NCBI GenBank assembly: GCA_026418535.1
Contig: JAOABC010000003.1
Coordinates: forward strand, 1-64,000
DNA: 64,000 nucleotides
Source of the DNA: Hydrogenothermaceae bacterium
GTDB taxonomy: Bacteria; Aquificota; Aquificia; Aquificales; Hydrogenothermaceae
Direction: 5' to 3'
The notes under the pieces are model-generated. The model was not told the origin of the DNA. It ran no database searches and saw only the letters and a list, made by a program, of their open reading frames with translations. The position numbers and the translations under genes were made by a program. Positions 2,167-15,937 of this stretch are shown here, in pieces (position 1 is the stretch's first letter; each line of letters begins with the position of its first letter).

Positions 2167-2346
2167 ATGTCTGTTAGAGAAGTTAAAATTAAAATAAGTC
2201 AGCTCTCAAAAGACTTTATGGAAATCATCGAAAAAGAAAAAGATACTGAAAAGAAAGTAAAGCTATTTGAAAGTTTCTACAAAACTCTAAATCTCATACA
2301 GGAGATATACGACCCTTTTAAAGAGAGTAAAGAAAGGCTAAATTAA
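2167..2346 (+). CDS. Small charged coiled-coil protein
   Basis: A 59-residue protein, rich in Lys and Glu, mostly predicted helix, with no Cys, no membrane segment and no family I recognise. The ATG at 2167 is preceded by GGAGG seven bases upstream, a good ribosome site, so I prefer it to the TTG at 2155. Its last bases overlap the end of the convergent rlmB gene. Probably a real small cytoplasmic protein; function unknown. Confidence 0.6.
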   Translation: MSVREVKIKISQLSKDFMEIIEKEKDTEKKVKLFESFYKTLNLIQEIYDPFKESKERLN

Positions 2347-3064
2347 CCTCTTCACAATCTCCCATATCGCTATAGAGGTTGCAGAGGAGACATTTAGAGA
2401 GGTTACCCTACCTCTCATAGGTATAGTAGCCACTATATCTGCAGTTTCTAAAACAGATTTCGAGATTCCTTTTCCCTCAGAACCTACTACAATAGCAAGG
2501 GGAAAAGGAAAGTCTATATGGTGTATATCTCTGCCACCTTTCTCTACTGCAATAACCCAACCACCTTTCTTTTTAAACTTCTCCAAGAAGCTAGAGAGAC
2601 TTCCTACCTTTGTAACCGGAATATAGAAAATAGCACCTGTGGATGCTTTCACCACAACCTCGTTTATCGGACTAGACCTCTCCCTTGAAACAACTATCCC
2701 ACTACCCCCTAAAACCTCAGTAGTTCTTATTATGTTACCTACATTCTGAGGGTCTGTTATATGGTCAAGGACTACGATAAACCCTTTTTCCCTTACAGCT
2801 TTATCTATCAATCTATCTTCATCGTAGTACTTTATGGGACTTACTAATGCCACTACACCTTGAGTTTTCTTAGTTCCTGCCAGCTCTTCTATCTTCTGAC
2901 GGGACACTTTTTGAACCTTTACCTTTCTTTTATTAGCAAGCTCTAACAACTCTTTTGGGGGATGGCTATCATGGGCTATTAGTATCTTTTCTAAACTTTT
3001 GCCAGCTTTCAAAGCCTCGATTACCGGATTCCTTCCCCATATTACGATTGATTGATTTTCCTGA

Positions 3065-3072
<8 letters not shown>
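2338..3072 (-). CDS. rlmB: 23S rRNA (guanosine-2'-O-)-methyltransferase, TrmH/SpoU family
   Basis: A SpoU-class methyltransferase, 244 residues: an N-terminal L30e-like substrate-binding part (about 1-75) and a trefoil-knot domain. The three family motifs are visible: [11 protein letters not shown] (107-117), [10 protein letters not shown] (195-204) and [20 protein letters not shown] (217-236). RlmB methylates G2251 of 23S rRNA using SAM; exact substrate is inferred from family. It starts with TTG just inside the end of fmt, behind GGAGAAAGG, so it is translationally coupled as the last gene of obgE-fmt-rlmB. Confidence 0.87.
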
Positions 3073-5242
<2,170 letters not shown>

Positions 5243-5254
5243 CTTAGATATCAA

Positions 5255-5280
5255 AAGGGGGCTTTAAAGCCCCTTTTACT
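5255..5280 (-). terminator. Intrinsic terminator after rpmB
   Basis: AAAAGGGGCTTTAAAGCCCCCTTTT on the minus strand, directly after the rpmB stop: a GC-rich stem of about 7 bp within an A/T-flanked dyad. It would end rpmB transcription or attenuate read-through into the obgE operon. Confidence 0.75.
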
Positions 5281-5281
5281 G

Positions 5282-5473
5282 TTAAACAGCTTTCTTAACT
5301 TTCCCTGCTTTTAAACACTTAGAACATACATATACTCTTTTTGATGTACCATCTGGAAGGAGAGCTTTTACTTTTCTTAGGTTTGGTTTCCAAGTTCTCC
5401 TCTCTGTAGTTGCGGAGTGAGCCACTGTATTTCCAAAAACCGTTTTCTTTCCACAAACTGAACAAACAGCCAT
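5282..5473 (-). CDS. rpmB: 50S ribosomal protein L28
   Basis: A 63-residue L28 with the zinc-ribbon cysteine pairs CSVCGK near the N-terminus and VCSKCLKAG near the C-terminus, and the conserved basic RRTWKPNLRKV core. It binds 23S rRNA in the large subunit. AGGAGG lies about ten bases before the ATG. It appears to be transcribed on its own, with a TACAAT-like -10 element just upstream and a terminator just downstream. Confidence 0.95.
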   Translation of the reverse strand: MAVCSVCGKKTVFGNTVAHSATTERRTWKPNLRKVKALLPDGTSKRVYVCSKCLKAGKVKKAV

Positions 5474-5504
5474 AAGTCTTCCTCCTAAAAATTTTTAACA
5501 AGCT

Positions 5505-5510
5505 AATTAT
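5505..5510 (-). promoter_or_regulatory. Possible -10 element of the rpmB promoter
   Basis: TACAAT on the minus strand, about 30 bases upstream of the rpmB start and just beyond the glcD stop. I do not see a convincing -35 element, so this is a weak call based on the -10 match and position. Confidence 0.35.
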
Positions 5511-5522
5511 TGTACCACATTT

Positions 5523-6929
5523 TTAGTCTAAATCCATCTTTCCAGGATTTATAAGGTTCTCTGGGTCAAAGACTCTTTTTATTTTCCTCATAATATCCAT
5601 CTCCTGAGAGCTGAACTGTTTCCTCATAAACTCTGCCTTTGTTATACCTACTCCGTGTTCTCCGGTGATTGAACCTCTATAAGATAGAGCAAGCTCAAAA
5701 ACTTCTTCTACTGCTTTTTCAGCCCTTGAAACCTCATCTGGGTCAAGACCGTTTATCATAAAGTTTGCATGGACGTTTCCATCCCCTATATGTCCGAAAT
5801 TTACCATCTTTAGGTTATATCTCCTCCCTATCTCTCTTAGCTTTGGAAGGGCATCCGGAAGATAGCTTCTTGGAAAAACTATATCCTCGTTTATCTTTGT
5901 TCTTCCAAGCTTGGATACTGCAGGAGATAGAGACCTTCTTGCTTCCCAGAGTTTTTCAGCTTCTCTATCTGTTTTTGCAACCTCAACTTTAGCACCGTTT
6001 AATTCACAGATCTTCGCCACTTCGTTTATCTCGTCCTCTAAAGCTTTTGGATGTCCGTCTACTTCTATAAGGAGAATAACTTCCGCATCCCGTGGTAGCC
6101 CAAAGTGTCCAAAGTCCTCAACAGCGTTTATTGCTAATTTGTCCATAAACTCAAGAGCAGATGGAGATATTCCTGCTTTGAATATGTCTTTAACCGTTTT
6201 ACCAACAGATTCTAAGTCCATGTAGACCGCTTTCACAGTTTTCTTTGCCTTTGGTTTTGGTATAAGTTTAACAGTTATACCAGTGAATATTCCTAAAGTA
6301 CCCTCACTTCCTATAAGTAGTCTTGTAAGGTCATATCCTGCCACATCTTTAAGAGTTATTCTCCCTGTTTGGATTATATCTCCAGTGTAGATTACAGTGT
6401 CAAGCTCCATTATGTACTCTCTGGTAACTCCATATTTAACACACCGTGGGCCTCCTGCATTCTCAGCTACGTTTCCCCCCATAGTGCAGAACTTATAGCT
6501 TGCAGGGTCCGGAGGATAGAATAGTCCTTTTTTTTCTACAGCTTGCTGTAGTCTATAGGTTATGACTCCAGGTTGAACCTTTGCAACAGCGTTATCTTCA
6601 TCTATCCAGAGTATCTTATCCATCTTTTCAAAAGATATCAAAACACCTCCTTTAACTGGTATGGACCCTCCAGTGTATCCAGAACCTGCTCCTCTTGGAG
6701 TTATTGGAACACCGTTCTCATAACATATCTTAACTACTTTTTGGACATCTTCTCCAGATTCCGGGATAACAACTACATCTGGAGGAAAGCTAAGCCTTGT
6801 AGCATCGTATGAGTACAACATCCTATCCATCTCGTCATCAAAAACGTTATGATTTCCTATAGCCTCCCTTAGAGCTCTCTTCACAGACTCCGGAACAGGT
6901 ACATTCTCCACATTTCTAACTTTAAACAT
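5523..6929 (-). CDS. glcD: FAD-linked oxidase, glycolate oxidase/D-lactate dehydrogenase subunit GlcD
   Basis: A 468-residue flavoprotein that oxidises a 2-hydroxyacid (glycolate or D-lactate) and passes electrons to an Fe-S partner. It shows the FAD_binding_4 domain (about 45-185, with PRGAGSGYTGGS near 78-89 and GGNVAENAGGPRCVKYG near 151) and the FAD-oxidase C-terminal domain with GEHGVG close to the end. The likely partner GlcF is at 23366-24610 rather than next door. GAGGTG lies before the ATG. Substrate cannot be fixed from sequence. Confidence 0.88.
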   Translation of the reverse strand: MFKVRNVENVPVPESVKRALREAIGNHNVFDDEMDRMLYSYDATRLSFPPDVVVIPESGEDVQKVVKICYENGVPITPRGAGSGYTGGSIPVKGGVLISFEKMDKILWIDEDNAVAKVQPGVITYRLQQAVEKKGLFYPPDPASYKFCTMGGNVAENAGGPRCVKYGVTREYIMELDTVIYTGDIIQTGRITLKDVAGYDLTRLLIGSEGTLGIFTGITVKLIPKPKAKKTVKAVYMDLESVGKTVKDIFKAGISPSALEFMDKLAINAVEDFGHFGLPRDAEVILLIEVDGHPKALEDEINEVAKICELNGAKVEVAKTDREAEKLWEARRSLSPAVSKLGRTKINEDIVFPRSYLPDALPKLREIGRRYNLKMVNFGHIGDGNVHANFMINGLDPDEVSRAEKAVEEVFELALSYRGSITGEHGVGITKAEFMRKQFSSQEMDIMRKIKRVFDPENLINPGKMDLD

Positions 6930-11553: not shown

Positions 11554-12039
11554 TCAAAGTCTTTTGAGGCCTTCCCTTAGTTTTATGTATGTCTCTTTAA
11601 GGTCGTAGGATATTACTCTTGTCTCTCCAAGGACGGGCATAAAGTTTGTATCACCAATCCATCTTGGGACTATATGGTTGTGGATATGGCTCTCTAGACC
11701 GGCTCCTGCGGACTTTCCAAGATTATAACCTATATTAAAACCGTCTGGTTTTAAAACGATTTTCAGGAGTTTTACCATTCTTTGAGTTAATTCTGATATT
11801 TCATAGAGAGTTTCTATATCTATTTGGGTAAAGTCTCCTATATGTTGGTAAGGGCAGACCATCAGATGGCCAGCATTGTATGGATAAAGATTGAGAATTA
11901 CGAAAGCTCTCTTCCCTCTATAGAGCACCAAATTCTTCTCATCGTCTTCCTCTTCAACAGCTTTACACAGAAAACAACCTTCAAAATTCTCTAATCCATC
12001 TATATACTGACTTCTCCAGGGTGAGTAAAGCCTATCCAT
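11554..12039 (-). CDS. HIT-family nucleotide hydrolase/phosphorylase
   Basis: A 161-residue histidine-triad protein. The triad H118-x-H120-x-H122 is in ESHIHNHIVPRW, with the family strand YPYNAGHLMVCPYQH at 53-67. The N-terminal GCFLC pair with later residues may bind zinc as in Ap4A-phosphorylase-like HIT proteins. It likely cleaves dinucleoside polyphosphates or nucleotidyl adducts. The gene stands alone, divergent from the PhnD-like operon. Confidence 0.88.
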   Translation of the reverse strand: MDRLYSPWRSQYIDGLENFEGCFLCKAVEEEDDEKNLVLYRGKRAFVILNLYPYNAGHLMVCPYQHIGDFTQIDIETLYEISELTQRMVKLLKIVLKPDGFNIGYNLGKSAGAGLESHIHNHIVPRWIGDTNFMPVLGETRVISYDLKETYIKLREGLKRL

Positions 12040-12079
12040 ATATCCTCCCTAAATTCAATTGGAAAATTATAACCTATTT

Positions 12080-12122
12080 TTAATTATTAGTTCTTAATTA
12101 TTAGTTGGAAAGAGAATATAAT
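12080..12122 (+). promoter_or_regulatory. Promoter with 13-bp direct repeats upstream of the PhnD-like/GGDEF operon
   Basis: TTAATTATTAGTT occurs twice, at 12080-12092 and 12094-12106, a 14-base period. A perfect -10 TATAAT follows at 12117-12122. The second repeat covers the -35 position, a layout typical of a response-regulator or activator binding site. The binding protein is unknown. Confidence 0.6.
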
Positions 12123-12143
12123 ATTTTGGAGGAGGAGTTGATA

Positions 12144-12944
12144 ATGAAAAGCATAGTTTTACTGTTGGTTTTACTGATAGTCTATAGTTCCTTTGGAGGT
12201 ACTATAAAGTTCGCTCCACTGCCTACACAACCGAAAGAGGAGCTAATAGGTGGCCATCTACCATTGATACGATACCTGGAACAGAAAACCAGTTTAGATT
12301 TTGAGATAGTTTACATAGAAGACTATAGCAAACTGCTTGAAGAATTCAAAAAGGGTGGAGTAGATATTATAATTGCTGGTCCCATACCATACTTAGAGCT
12401 AAAAAGCAGTTTTTCGGAAGCAAAAGCAATCCTATTTCTTAGAGAAAAAGACGGGAACACATCTTATAGTTGCGTACTGATAACAGCTATGGATGGGCCA
12501 TTAAGTATAAAAGAGATTAAAGGTCCAGTAGCGCTACCACAAAGACTCAGCACTTGTGGATACTTCTCTGCAAATATACTTCTATCTTCAGAGGGAAAGG
12601 ATATAAATAAACTTGGTTATAAACACTTTTCTACTCATAATCAAGCAATAGAAGCCGTTATAAGAGGAGAGTATCAGGTCGGCTCTATCAAAAAGAGTAT
12701 AGCGAAAGAGTACGAAGGATTTAGAATCAGAATACTAAAAGAGAGTCCAAAATGGTCAGCTTTTTCCATGATAGTAAACAGTAGGACCTTAAACCCAGAA
12801 GCGATAAACAGAATAAAAACCTCTCTACTCTCTGTAACAGAGAAAGAGCTTAAAGAGCTTGTGGTCGGTAAATTTGGATTTGCTGAGTGTAAAGAAGAAG
12901 ATTTTGAGATTATAAAAAAGTATGAAAAGTATAAAGCCAAGTAA
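12144..12944 (+). CDS. PhnD-like periplasmic substrate-binding protein
   Basis: A 266-residue secreted protein: signal peptide at 1-20 (MKSIVLLLVLLIVYSSFGG), then a type 2 periplasmic-binding fold of the phosphate/phosphite/phosphonate (PhnD, PF12974-like) group, with LPTQPKEE and GPIPYLELK near the ligand-facing strand starts. The ATG at 12144 follows GGAGGAGGAG, so the longer frame from 12105 is rejected. No ABC permease or ATPase follows; instead the 3' end overlaps a membrane diguanylate cyclase by 23 bases. A role as ligand-binding partner of that sensor is inferred, as in NspS-MbaA of Vibrio. The ligand is unknown. Confidence 0.82.
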   Translation: MKSIVLLLVLLIVYSSFGGTIKFAPLPTQPKEELIGGHLPLIRYLEQKTSLDFEIVYIEDYSKLLEEFKKGGVDIIIAGPIPYLELKSSFSEAKAILFLREKDGNTSYSCVLITAMDGPLSIKEIKGPVALPQRLSTCGYFSANILLSSEGKDINKLGYKHFSTHNQAIEAVIRGEYQVGSIKKSIAKEYEGFRIRILKESPKWSAFSMIVNSRTLNPEAINRIKTSLLSVTEKELKELVVGKFGFAECKEEDFEIIKKYEKYKAK

Positions 12945-14865
12945 ACACGTAATCAAGTATATTGTAATAAGTTTACTTCTATTTTCTGTTCTGTTAGGGA
13001 TTGGAATAGCTTTCCTAAACCACCTGTGTGAAAAAAGTGTTGAATCTAACTTAGAGAAAGCTACAAAAATCACTAGAGCTATGTGGAATACAACTACGGT
13101 GGCAAATTTTGAAACTATGCAAGCTTACTATAAATACTACATAATGGACGATAAAGTGTTAGAGTTTTTAAAGATGGCAAATTCTATGGATGAAGAGTCC
13201 CAGAAGATAGCAAGGCTTAAACTGTTTCGGTATCTCTGGGATAAGTATAGCTATCTAAGAGAGAACCTCCATATCAGACAACTCCACTTCATACTTCCAG
13301 ATAATAGGTCTTTTCTTAGGTTCCATCCTCCAAGCAAGTACGGTGATGACCTAGGGAGCTATCGCCCTTCCATAATGGAAGTTAACAGAAAAAGAAAACC
13401 ATATATAGGTTTTGAGATAGGAAGACTTGTGAGTGGGTATAGGTATATATTTCCAATTTTTGATAGAGAAGGAAACTATCTTGGCTGTGTTGAGCTATCA
13501 AGAGGATTTGAAACTATAAGAAAGAATCTAAATGAAGTGGATAAAGAGGCAGGATACATTATTTTCCTGAGAAAGTCTGAGATAGATAAAAAGATTATGA
13601 AAGAGTATAGAGATTTTTATGTGAATATTAATGGCTTAGATGGTTGGGTGGTTGAAGACCCGTACATAAAACTTCCTGACTACACAAAACCATTACCTCC
13701 TGAGTATGACAAAGTGTTAAAATCTGCCATCAAAAGTGAAGAGTTCAGAGAGATGATGGACTCTAAGGAGAGCTATTCTATAGCCTTAGAGTATATGTCA
13801 AAGTATTATAAGATAACGGGGTTAAAGATCTTTGAGCCTGGAAAAGAGTATCACTCAGCGGTTCTGATAGCTGTATACCCAGCTCCGGATATTATGCTCA
13901 GTAAAGTAAGTTTCAATAATTATAAATTTATTTACATAGTGATGGTAGGAATCATTTCAATTTATACATTTCTATACCTTTTAAAAGTCTACAGTATAAG
14001 ATTAAAAAATAAAGAGATAGAGGCAATAACCTCAAGTATGGGAATTGGACTGTTAGTTCTTAACAGTAATGGTGTGGTAAAGTATGTAAACAGAGCAGCC
14101 TTAGATTTACTAGGGTATTCAGAGAGAGAAATTTTAGGTTCAAGTCTACACAGTCTAATCCACTCCCATGCAGGCCCTGAAGAAGGATGTCCCATTTTAA
14201 AAGCCGTAAAATTTCAAAGTGTGTATTGTGCTGACAATAAATTTAAGAGGAAAGATAGTAGTTATATAGATGTTTCAGTTGATGTTAGACCTATAGTTTT
14301 AGAGGGGAATAATGTGGGATCTATTGTTGTGTTTAGTGATATTAGTCAAAGAAAAGAGATAGAAAATAAACTTTTCGACATGGCAACTAAAGACAGTTTA
14401 ACAGGGTTATGTAACAGAAGATTCCAGGTAGAAGCTATTAAGAAATCAAAGGAGAGAGCGGATAGATATGGCATACCATTTAGTGTTCTGATGATCGATA
14501 TAGATAATTTCAAGTCTATAAACGATAGATTTGGTCATAATACGGGAGATAAAGTGCTAATAGGTGTGTCTAATGTAATAAGCCAGAGTGTAAGGTCTGC
14601 AGATACGCTTTCAAGATGGGGTGGTGAAGAGTTCTTAGTCCTACTAGTAAACACAGACATAGAGGGAGCTGTAGTTTTAGCAGAGAGAATTAGGAAAAAG
14701 GTGGCTAAATTGAAGATAGAGGGTATTCCACAGGTAACTGTAAGTATAGGGGTGGCTCAGTATATACCTGGAGAGAGTATAGACAACTTGATATCCAGAG
14801 TTGATAATGGACTGTATGATGCTAAAAGGTCTGGGAAAAACAGGGTTGTAAGAGTAGACATCTGA
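12922..14865 (+). CDS. Membrane diguanylate cyclase with periplasmic sensor, PAS and GGDEF domains
   Basis: 647 residues. Helix 1 (about 12-32), a periplasmic region to about 333 with Cache-like features (LHFILPDNRSFLRFHPPS, then RYIFPIFDREGNYLGCVELS), helix 2 (about 336-354), PAS (370-478) and GGDEF (485-645). The active site GGEEF is at 567-571 and the inhibitory I-site R558-S-A-D561 lies five residues before it, so it should make c-di-GMP with product inhibition. It starts inside the PhnD-like gene, so expression is coupled. The central HAGPEEGCP within PAS is an insertion-like feature. Ligand sensing through the binding protein is inference. Confidence 0.88.
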   Translation: MKSIKPSKHVIKYIVISLLLFSVLLGIGIAFLNHLCEKSVESNLEKATKITRAMWNTTTVANFETMQAYYKYYIMDDKVLEFLKMANSMDEESQKIARLKLFRYLWDKYSYLRENLHIRQLHFILPDNRSFLRFHPPSKYGDDLGSYRPSIMEVNRKRKPYIGFEIGRLVSGYRYIFPIFDREGNYLGCVELSRGFETIRKNLNEVDKEAGYIIFLRKSEIDKKIMKEYRDFYVNINGLDGWVVEDPYIKLPDYTKPLPPEYDKVLKSAIKSEEFREMMDSKESYSIALEYMSKYYKITGLKIFEPGKEYHSAVLIAVYPAPDIMLSKVSFNNYKFIYIVMVGIISIYTFLYLLKVYSIRLKNKEIEAITSSMGIGLLVLNSNGVVKYVNRAALDLLGYSEREILGSSLHSLIHSHAGPEEGCPILKAVKFQSVYCADNKFKRKDSSYIDVSVDVRPIVLEGNNVGSIVVFSDISQRKEIENKLFDMATKDSLTGLCNRRFQVEAIKKSKERADRYGIPFSVLMIDIDNFKSINDRFGHNTGDKVLIGVSNVISQSVRSADTLSRWGGEEFLVLLVNTDIEGAVVLAERIRKKVAKLKIEGIPQVTVSIGVAQYIPGESIDNLISRVDNGLYDAKRSGKNRVVRVDI

Positions 14866-14926: not shown

Positions 14927-15937
14927 GTGACTTTGGGAAAAGTTGGTGTTGTTCTTTTTAATATGGGTGGTCCAGATAGTTTAGATGCTGTCCAACCTTT
15001 TCTGTACAACCTATTCTCAGACCACGATATAATGCAGATGCCAAAACCAATACAAAAACCATTAGCATTTCTAATCTCAAGGATAAGGTCAAAAAAGACT
15101 AAGAAGTACTACGAGATAATGGGCGGAAAGTCTCCCCAGAAAGAGCAGACACTGCATCAGGCTCAAGCTCTACAAGATGCCCTTGGAGATAACTACAAAG
15201 TCGTGGTGGCTATGAGATACTGGCATCCTTTTACAGAAGAGGCTTTAGAAGAGCTGTTTAAAGAAAGGGTAAGTAAGATCATACTAATTCCTTTGTATCC
15301 TCAGTACAGTAAGACTACAACTGGGTCATCCTTTAATGAGTTTGATAGAAAAATAAGGAGATATATAAAATCAGGCAGGTTTACAGTCCCATCCACATTA
15401 AATGGTCAGAAAAAGCCATACTACTATTCCTCCAATATACCTATCAAGAAGGTAAACTGTTACTTTGACAACCCAGATTATATAGATGGTATGGTTTCTC
15501 AGATTAAAGAGTGTGTACCTAACTATCAGGAATACTTCTTCCTCTTCTCGGCCCATAGCCTTCCTGAGAAGATAATACTAAACGGAGACCCTTACAAAAG
15601 GCAGACAGAGAAAACTGTAGATCTTATAATGAAAAACTTTTCGGGAGTTAAGTATGCACTCTCCTATCAGAGCAAGGTTGGCCCAGTTAAATGGTTACAA
15701 CCTTTCACAGAGGAGACCATAAGAGAGTTAGCTTCTAATGGTATCAAGAAGCTAGCTGTCATCCCGGTATCCTTTGTATCAGAACATTCAGAAACACTGT
15801 ACGAGCTTGATTATCAGTATGGGAACCTTGCAAAAGAGTTAGGTATAGAGAACTATATAAGAGTTCCCACTCTCCAGACCTATCCAGGTTTTATCCGGAC
15901 TTTAAGAAACCTAATTGTCAGATACTCTTCGGATTAA
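14927..15937 (+). CDS. hemH: Ferrochelatase
   Basis: Inserts Fe2+ into protoporphyrin IX in the last step of protoheme synthesis. The 336-residue protein has the N-terminal GVVLFNMGGPDSL signature, the LYPQYSKTTTGSS motif near 122-134, and FSAHSLPEKI near 206-215 with the metal-site His. GTG at 14927 lies close behind GGGAG; a TTG six bases later is also possible and gives MGKVGVVLFN. With hemN at 26222 the window holds two heme genes, in separate units. The 3' end overlaps the convergent priA. Confidence 0.9.
   Translation: MTLGKVGVVLFNMGGPDSLDAVQPFLYNLFSDHDIMQMPKPIQKPLAFLISRIRSKKTKKYYEIMGGKSPQKEQTLHQAQALQDALGDNYKVVVAMRYWHPFTEEALEELFKERVSKIILIPLYPQYSKTTTGSSFNEFDRKIRRYIKSGRFTVPSTLNGQKKPYYYSSNIPIKKVNCYFDNPDYIDGMVSQIKECVPNYQEYFFLFSAHSLPEKIILNGDPYKRQTEKTVDLIMKNFSGVKYALSYQSKVGPVKWLQPFTEETIRELASNGIKKLAVIPVSFVSEHSETLYELDYQYGNLAKELGIENYIRVPTLQTYPGFIRTLRNLIVRYSSD

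Follow-up and report, generated by a model that had tools for sequence, protein, structure and literature searches.

A PF12974 binding protein and a membrane diguanylate cyclase encoded as an overlapping, mobile gene pair in at least three phyla

We analysed a stretch of 64,000 nucleotides from a Hydrogenothermaceae bacterium (positions 1 to 64,000 of contig JAOABC010000003.1, assembly GCA_026418535.1; hereafter the window, which is part of contig C23 in our numbering of a 1.47 Mb genome that is 99.9% complete), and found that two of its genes, one for a periplasmic substrate-binding protein (SBP) of family PF12974 and one for a membrane diguanylate cyclase (DGC), encode a genuine sensing module that is mobile, belongs to a general type already described and recurs in at least three phyla. 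Both genes are intact and form a conserved overlapping pair, the two proteins fall into clades of their own, a genus-mate has an empty site where the pair would stand, the SBP has an anion-type fold, and the catalytic and inhibitory motifs of the cyclase are intact. A coupling of SBP and DGC, as the first-pass annotation of this DNA had proposed, is strongly supported because one gene accompanies the other across at least three phyla, the two overlap, and in the loci read they never stand beside permease genes. We therefore consider it probable that the two proteins form a bipartite periplasmic receptor in which docking of the SBP on the dCache domain sets the activity of the cyclase; the docking, the direction of the effect and the ligand are what we infer here.

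In the mechanism that we propose, the exported SBP would close around a small periplasmic anion and would dock, loaded or empty, on the membrane cyclase translated along with it, at the dCache domain. From there the signal would run through the second transmembrane segment and the PAS domain to dimerised GGDEF domains, changing the synthesis of cyclic di-GMP (c-di-GMP), with feedback at the inhibitory site (I-site). The features involved are as follows.

12144-12944, plus strand: SBP gene (PF12974, PhnD/PtxB-like periplasmic binding protein), 266 residues, ATG at 12144, stop at 12944
12922-12944, plus strand: 23-bp overlap of the two genes, with the DGC ATG out of frame in the Tyr-Glu codons of the SBP (TATGAA)
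12922-14865, plus strand: DGC gene, 647 residues, transmembrane-dCache-transmembrane-PAS-GGDEF (open reading frame, domain profiles)
13015-13935, plus strand: periplasmic dCache_3-type sensor domain of the DGC, residues 32-338, presumed SBP docking site (AlphaFold2 model, Foldseek)
14014-14355, plus strand: PAS domain of the DGC, residues 365-478 (profile match)
14386-14844, plus strand: GGDEF domain of the DGC (profile match)
14593-14604, plus strand: I-site R558-SA-D561 of the DGC (sequence)
14620-14634, plus strand: active-site GGEEF (G567-G-E-E-F571) of the DGC (sequence)

A gene pair that recurs and travels as a unit

The gene overlap and the Cache-PAS-GGDEF architecture noted at first pass both held, the latter through profile matches to dCache_3 (E 6.5e-12), PAS_9 (E 7e-14) and GGDEF (E 3.1e-45), and the same profile search gave no EAL match in the window DGC. 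The RxxD I-site (R558-S-A-D561) and GGEEF are invariant in 10 DGC orthologues, so that by its intact active site and I-site the enzyme is predicted to be an active diguanylate cyclase, as had been suspected. The AlphaFold2 model of its dCache domain reached a mean predicted local distance difference test score (pLDDT) of 90.8, and a Foldseek search with this model returned generic dCache sensors only (TM-score about 0.4-0.5), with no hint of a ligand. The PAS domain carries an HxHxG...CP motif (window 14140-14200, about residues 407-425) that is kept in most paired cyclases and missing in locus L158 and in genome G093, where the SBP is lost; a metal or redox role for it is possible.

To follow the pair beyond Aquificota we scanned a five-sequence SBP alignment against 84,980 species, and the wider spread is drawn from this one alignment-based pattern scan; a single-sequence SBP scan of genome contigs had given no matches. 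Within the Aquificota survey, true SBP orthologues were found in one Aquificaceae genus, and the conservation of neighbours there, a check that the first-pass annotation had named, was borne out by intact pairs that overlap by 23 bp (L101 and L102) or 4 bp (L103). Orthologues outside the phylum came from two Caldimicrobium metagenome-assembled genomes (L156 and L157), another such genome of Thermodesulfobacteriota (L158), Thermodesulfovibrio of the Nitrospirota (L160) and Desulfocapsa (L163). The DGC follows the SBP with a 26-bp overlap in the first four of these; the Desulfocapsa pair is adjacent and does not overlap, its dCache protein beginning 377 bp after the SBP and running off the contig end. 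A conserved PF12974 SBP gene adjoining a membrane DGC gene is thereby found in Aquificaceae, Thermodesulfobacteriota and Nitrospirota loci, and identity to the window proteins among paired orthologues is 41-52% for the SBPs and 37-45% for the DGCs. Of the eight overlapping pairs, the window's included, seven have the DGC ATG in a TATG that is out of frame with the SBP and falls in one conserved stretch close to the SBP C-terminus, and because this arrangement is kept in orthologues of three phyla it suggests that translation of the two genes may be coupled.

Phylogenies placed the DGC-linked SBPs, together with a lone protein of genome G091, on one side of a branch (support 100/99) that separates them from kinase-linked SBPs, and the periplasmic domains of the paired DGCs, together with two cyclases that lost their SBP, in a clade (98/98) apart from 13 dCache proteins that lack an SBP. 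Since both proteins keep to clades of their own, the two genes act as a single mobile unit. The nearest relatives of the window DGC are found in Thermodesulfobacteriota and Nitrospirota rather than in its own family, and in the genus-mate G001 and in G025 the HIT-family and ferrochelatase genes that flank the pair in the window stand side by side with the pair absent. Base composition (35.9% against a mean of 38.8%, standard deviation 2.0) gives at most a weak sign of transfer. The simplest reading is that both genes were acquired in one piece, and losses occur too. At locus L105 we also observed an SBP remnant (4945-5266) with a large internal deletion and a frameshift, in which the last SBP codons and the junction with the DGC start are kept.

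Pocket of the binding protein and its likely ligand

The SBP matched PF12974 at E 4.1e-38 (131.6 bits against a cut-off of 27), and its hydrophobic N-terminus (about residues 1-19, without a lipobox Cys) marks it as a predicted Sec-exported periplasmic protein. It fell short of the NCBIfam cut-offs of two transporter-SBP models, scoring 57.9 of 261.1 bits for TIGR03431 and 59.6 of 112.05 bits for TIGR01098. The predicted structure (pLDDT 90.2) has a type II SBP fold, with PtxB as its nearest match (E 6.8e-22) followed by ArrX (TM-score 0.79/0.82), HtxB and AioX, and with XAC2383 structures 5ub7 and 5ub3 also among the structural matches. Its pocket is lined by Tyr108, Cys110, Ser136-Thr137-Cys138 and His165; the alignment of ten SBP orthologues showed the hinge Tyr108, Cys110, Ser136-Thr137 and Cys138 to be invariant and His165 nearly so.

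In PtxB, phosphite is held by an STS-H motif together with two Tyr residues, one at the hinge and one capping the ligand (PMC5700983). Compared with PtxB and HtxB (phosphite and hypophosphite), which are nearest in sequence and fold, the window SBP keeps the hinge Tyr, Ser-Thr and His positions but departs from the phosphite-specific signature, as STS-H has become STC-H in all ten SBPs and the column of PtxB Tyr208 holds no conserved Tyr across them; it also has the added invariant Cys110 and no transporter. The SBP is thus likely to bind a small anion, for which a thiol-reactive compound is plausible, and phosphite or methylphosphonate is unlikely because the capping Tyr is lost and two invariant Cys are present. 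The STC-H motif, the missing capping Tyr and Cys110 together point to a sulfur or arsenic oxyanion as the most likely ligand, so that of the phosphate, phosphite, phosphonate and sulfur or nitrogen oxyanions first listed for this protein, the phosphite entry and, for methylphosphonate, the phosphonate entry lose ground and the sulfur oxyanion gains it. Gene context offers weak ligand hints in two loci, the pair standing after NrfD, Fe-S, cytochrome c and Nitrate_red_gam genes in L160 and between two genes of the TauE/SafE sulfite-exporter family in L156, and none in the remaining orthologous loci. The named organisms that carry the pair are mostly sulfur-cycle thermophiles. It is possible, if doubtful, that the pair represents a distinct receptor-cyclase family that spreads horizontally among thermophilic sulfur-cycle bacteria, and that the two invariant cysteines at its anion pocket, Cys110 and Cys138, would sense arsenite or a species of sulfur (thiosulfate, tetrathionate, sulfite or polysulfide) and pass this directly to c-di-GMP.

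Alternative partners and roles

Several observations weigh against a receptor made of both proteins. G093 has the DGC without the SBP, in G089 the SBP ahead of the intact DGC is internally deleted and frameshifted, and no DGC was detected in G091, which has the SBP; a mirror-tree comparison of SBP and periplasmic domain was weak (r 0.39, p 0.06, eight pairs only). As the DGC is kept in G093 and G089 without an intact SBP, it may do something alone, and related dCache-GGDEF proteins exist without SBP neighbours. The cyclase could then sense a ligand of its own via dCache or PAS, with the SBP merely co-transcribed and scavenging or buffering the same compound in a separate periplasmic role. However, G093 and G089 are two losses within a clade otherwise defined by the pair, the unpaired dCache proteins form a separate group, and the gene overlap is maintained across phyla, which makes this explanation unlikely.

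We give almost no credence to an orphan SBP of the PhnD/PtxB kind that serves an ATP-binding cassette (ABC) importer encoded elsewhere. Phosphite-transport SBPs are the best PDB sequence matches of the window SBP, but the phosphite-capping Tyr is not conserved, and genome-wide the best match to the PhnE permease model, at 30 bits, falls so far below the cut-off of 216.7 that we take the genome to have no PhnE. The description of a lone PhnD-type protein without ABC partners is in line with this, and far from always pairing with permeases, the SBP had none beside it in any orthologous locus read.

Signalling to a histidine kinase rather than to the DGC is also very unlikely, although distant relatives do so: the nearest SBP homologues in close relatives (about 24-30% identity) head kinase operons, often beside sox-like genes (named by eye), and in about 25-28 Aquificota loci relatives of the SBP lead SBP-kinase operons, some with an NtrC-type regulator. 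The DGC-linked SBPs form a separate clade, and the genome's own operon of this kind appears broken. That operon holds the second of the two PF12974 matches in the genome, near the end of contig C11 (L054, G000:C11:310000-316177, 2346-5856 on the minus strand), where the regulator is split into three open frames and both the kinase and the SBP have shortened ones; it is intact in the same-genus genome G001 (L055), and an assembly error could account for its broken look. In L057, L059-L061, L070, L072, L075 and L083 the SBP, kinase and NtrC-regulator genes adjoin sox-type thiosulfate oxidation genes, an arrangement seen in many genomes of the bacterium's family, and the anion loop of nearly all SBPs of this family has a CxxNC motif; this set is a candidate three-component sensor of thiosulfate.

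Outside the pair, the window and genome gave the following features.

11554-12039, minus strand: HIT-family gene (named by eye), left neighbour of the pair
12077-12104, plus strand: tandem AT-rich direct repeat of 14-bp units, TTTTTAATTATTAG / TTCTTAATTATTAG, 13 of 14 positions identical
12117-12122, plus strand: TATAAT downstream of the 14-bp repeat (sequence)
12130-12137, plus strand: Shine-Dalgarno sequence AGGAGGAG of the SBP gene (read directly from sequence)
14927-15937, plus strand: ferrochelatase-like gene (named by eye), right neighbour of the pair

The direct repeat had been reported as 13 bp long and as a layer of control; it exists, with units of 14 bp, and the chance of such a tandem in a Markov-1 spacer of the same length is about 0.001. 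Its core has no other copy anywhere in the genome, and most orthologues have no tandem upstream and none a counterpart of the window repeat, L160 having a different 12-bp tandem. Its lack of conservation leaves a control role unsupported, and we ruled the repeat out as a conserved operator; it is lineage-specific, and a recent local duplication is sufficient to explain it. The genome holds about ten GGDEF matches, several EAL and two PilZ, which supply the remaining parts of a c-di-GMP circuit, although in-frame stops in several GGDEF/EAL genes (C24:43974-44435, C11:190439-190672, C26:61209-61895) suggest either decay of c-di-GMP genes or frameshift errors.

Relation to known signalling systems

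Activation of cyclases and kinases via SBPs is an established mechanism (PMC9602780). The pairing was first likened to NspS-MbaA of Vibrio cholerae and Sinorhizobium, a fair analogy in that its c-di-GMP enzyme likewise answers to a periplasmic binding protein. NspS is of a different SBP family and MbaA is a GGDEF-EAL enzyme; the ligand is a polyamine, whereas the window pair has a PF12974 SBP and no EAL. The closer precedent, with the same SBP family and the same SBP-DGC pairing, is XAC2383-XAC2382 of Xanthomonas citri, reportedly the subject of Teixeira et al. 2018 (J Biol Chem 293:10767). A reference title in PMC10380989 names it as a PF12974 protein with a DGC, and XAC2383 is placed under PF12974 (PMC10942540). 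XAC2383 nevertheless represents another SBP lineage, because a 10-sequence profile of window-type SBPs missed it at E 10 while the SBP of L107 matched it best (E 1.4e-25). L107 (2520-4948) and L109 (3921-6140) hold a second, independent SBP-PAS-GGDEF pair in Aquificaceae, likely related to the Xanthomonas system, and judged on sequence the window-type and XAC2383-type pairs look like separate pairings of one fold with a cyclase.

AioX, ArrX and ArxX are PF12974-fold SBPs that signal arsenic oxyanions instead of transporting them (PMC5908839), but their partner is a histidine kinase, with a regulator as in AioX-AioS-AioR, whereas that of the window SBP is a DGC. The window SBP has neither the kinase-regulator operon nor the Cys106 of AioX, a position that our alignments place at a Gly and that is Cys only in two orthologues. 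PhnD-like domains of ThsS and TtrS sense thiosulfate and tetrathionate (PMC5408782), resembling the window SBP in fold and serving sulfur oxyanions, but there the sensor lies inside the kinase polypeptide and the output is a response regulator.

According to a 2022 review on c-di-GMP sensing, the periplasmic-binding-protein clan has 27 families, of which SBP_bac_3 alone had been studied in c-di-GMP networks (PMC8846402). The principle of an SBP activating a cyclase is known; the new part is a PF12974-cyclase pair distinct from XAC2383-XAC2382, kept as a unit by hot-spring and sulfur bacteria that span at least three phyla. Alongside the second pair and the relatives linked to kinases, it presents one binding-protein fold wired to different outputs, in a small and presumably heat-stable two-protein system suited to direct tests of ligand and docking. 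If the tentative proposal of Cys-based sulfur or arsenite sensing is true, the pair would connect surface attachment with an inorganic electron donor or acceptor.
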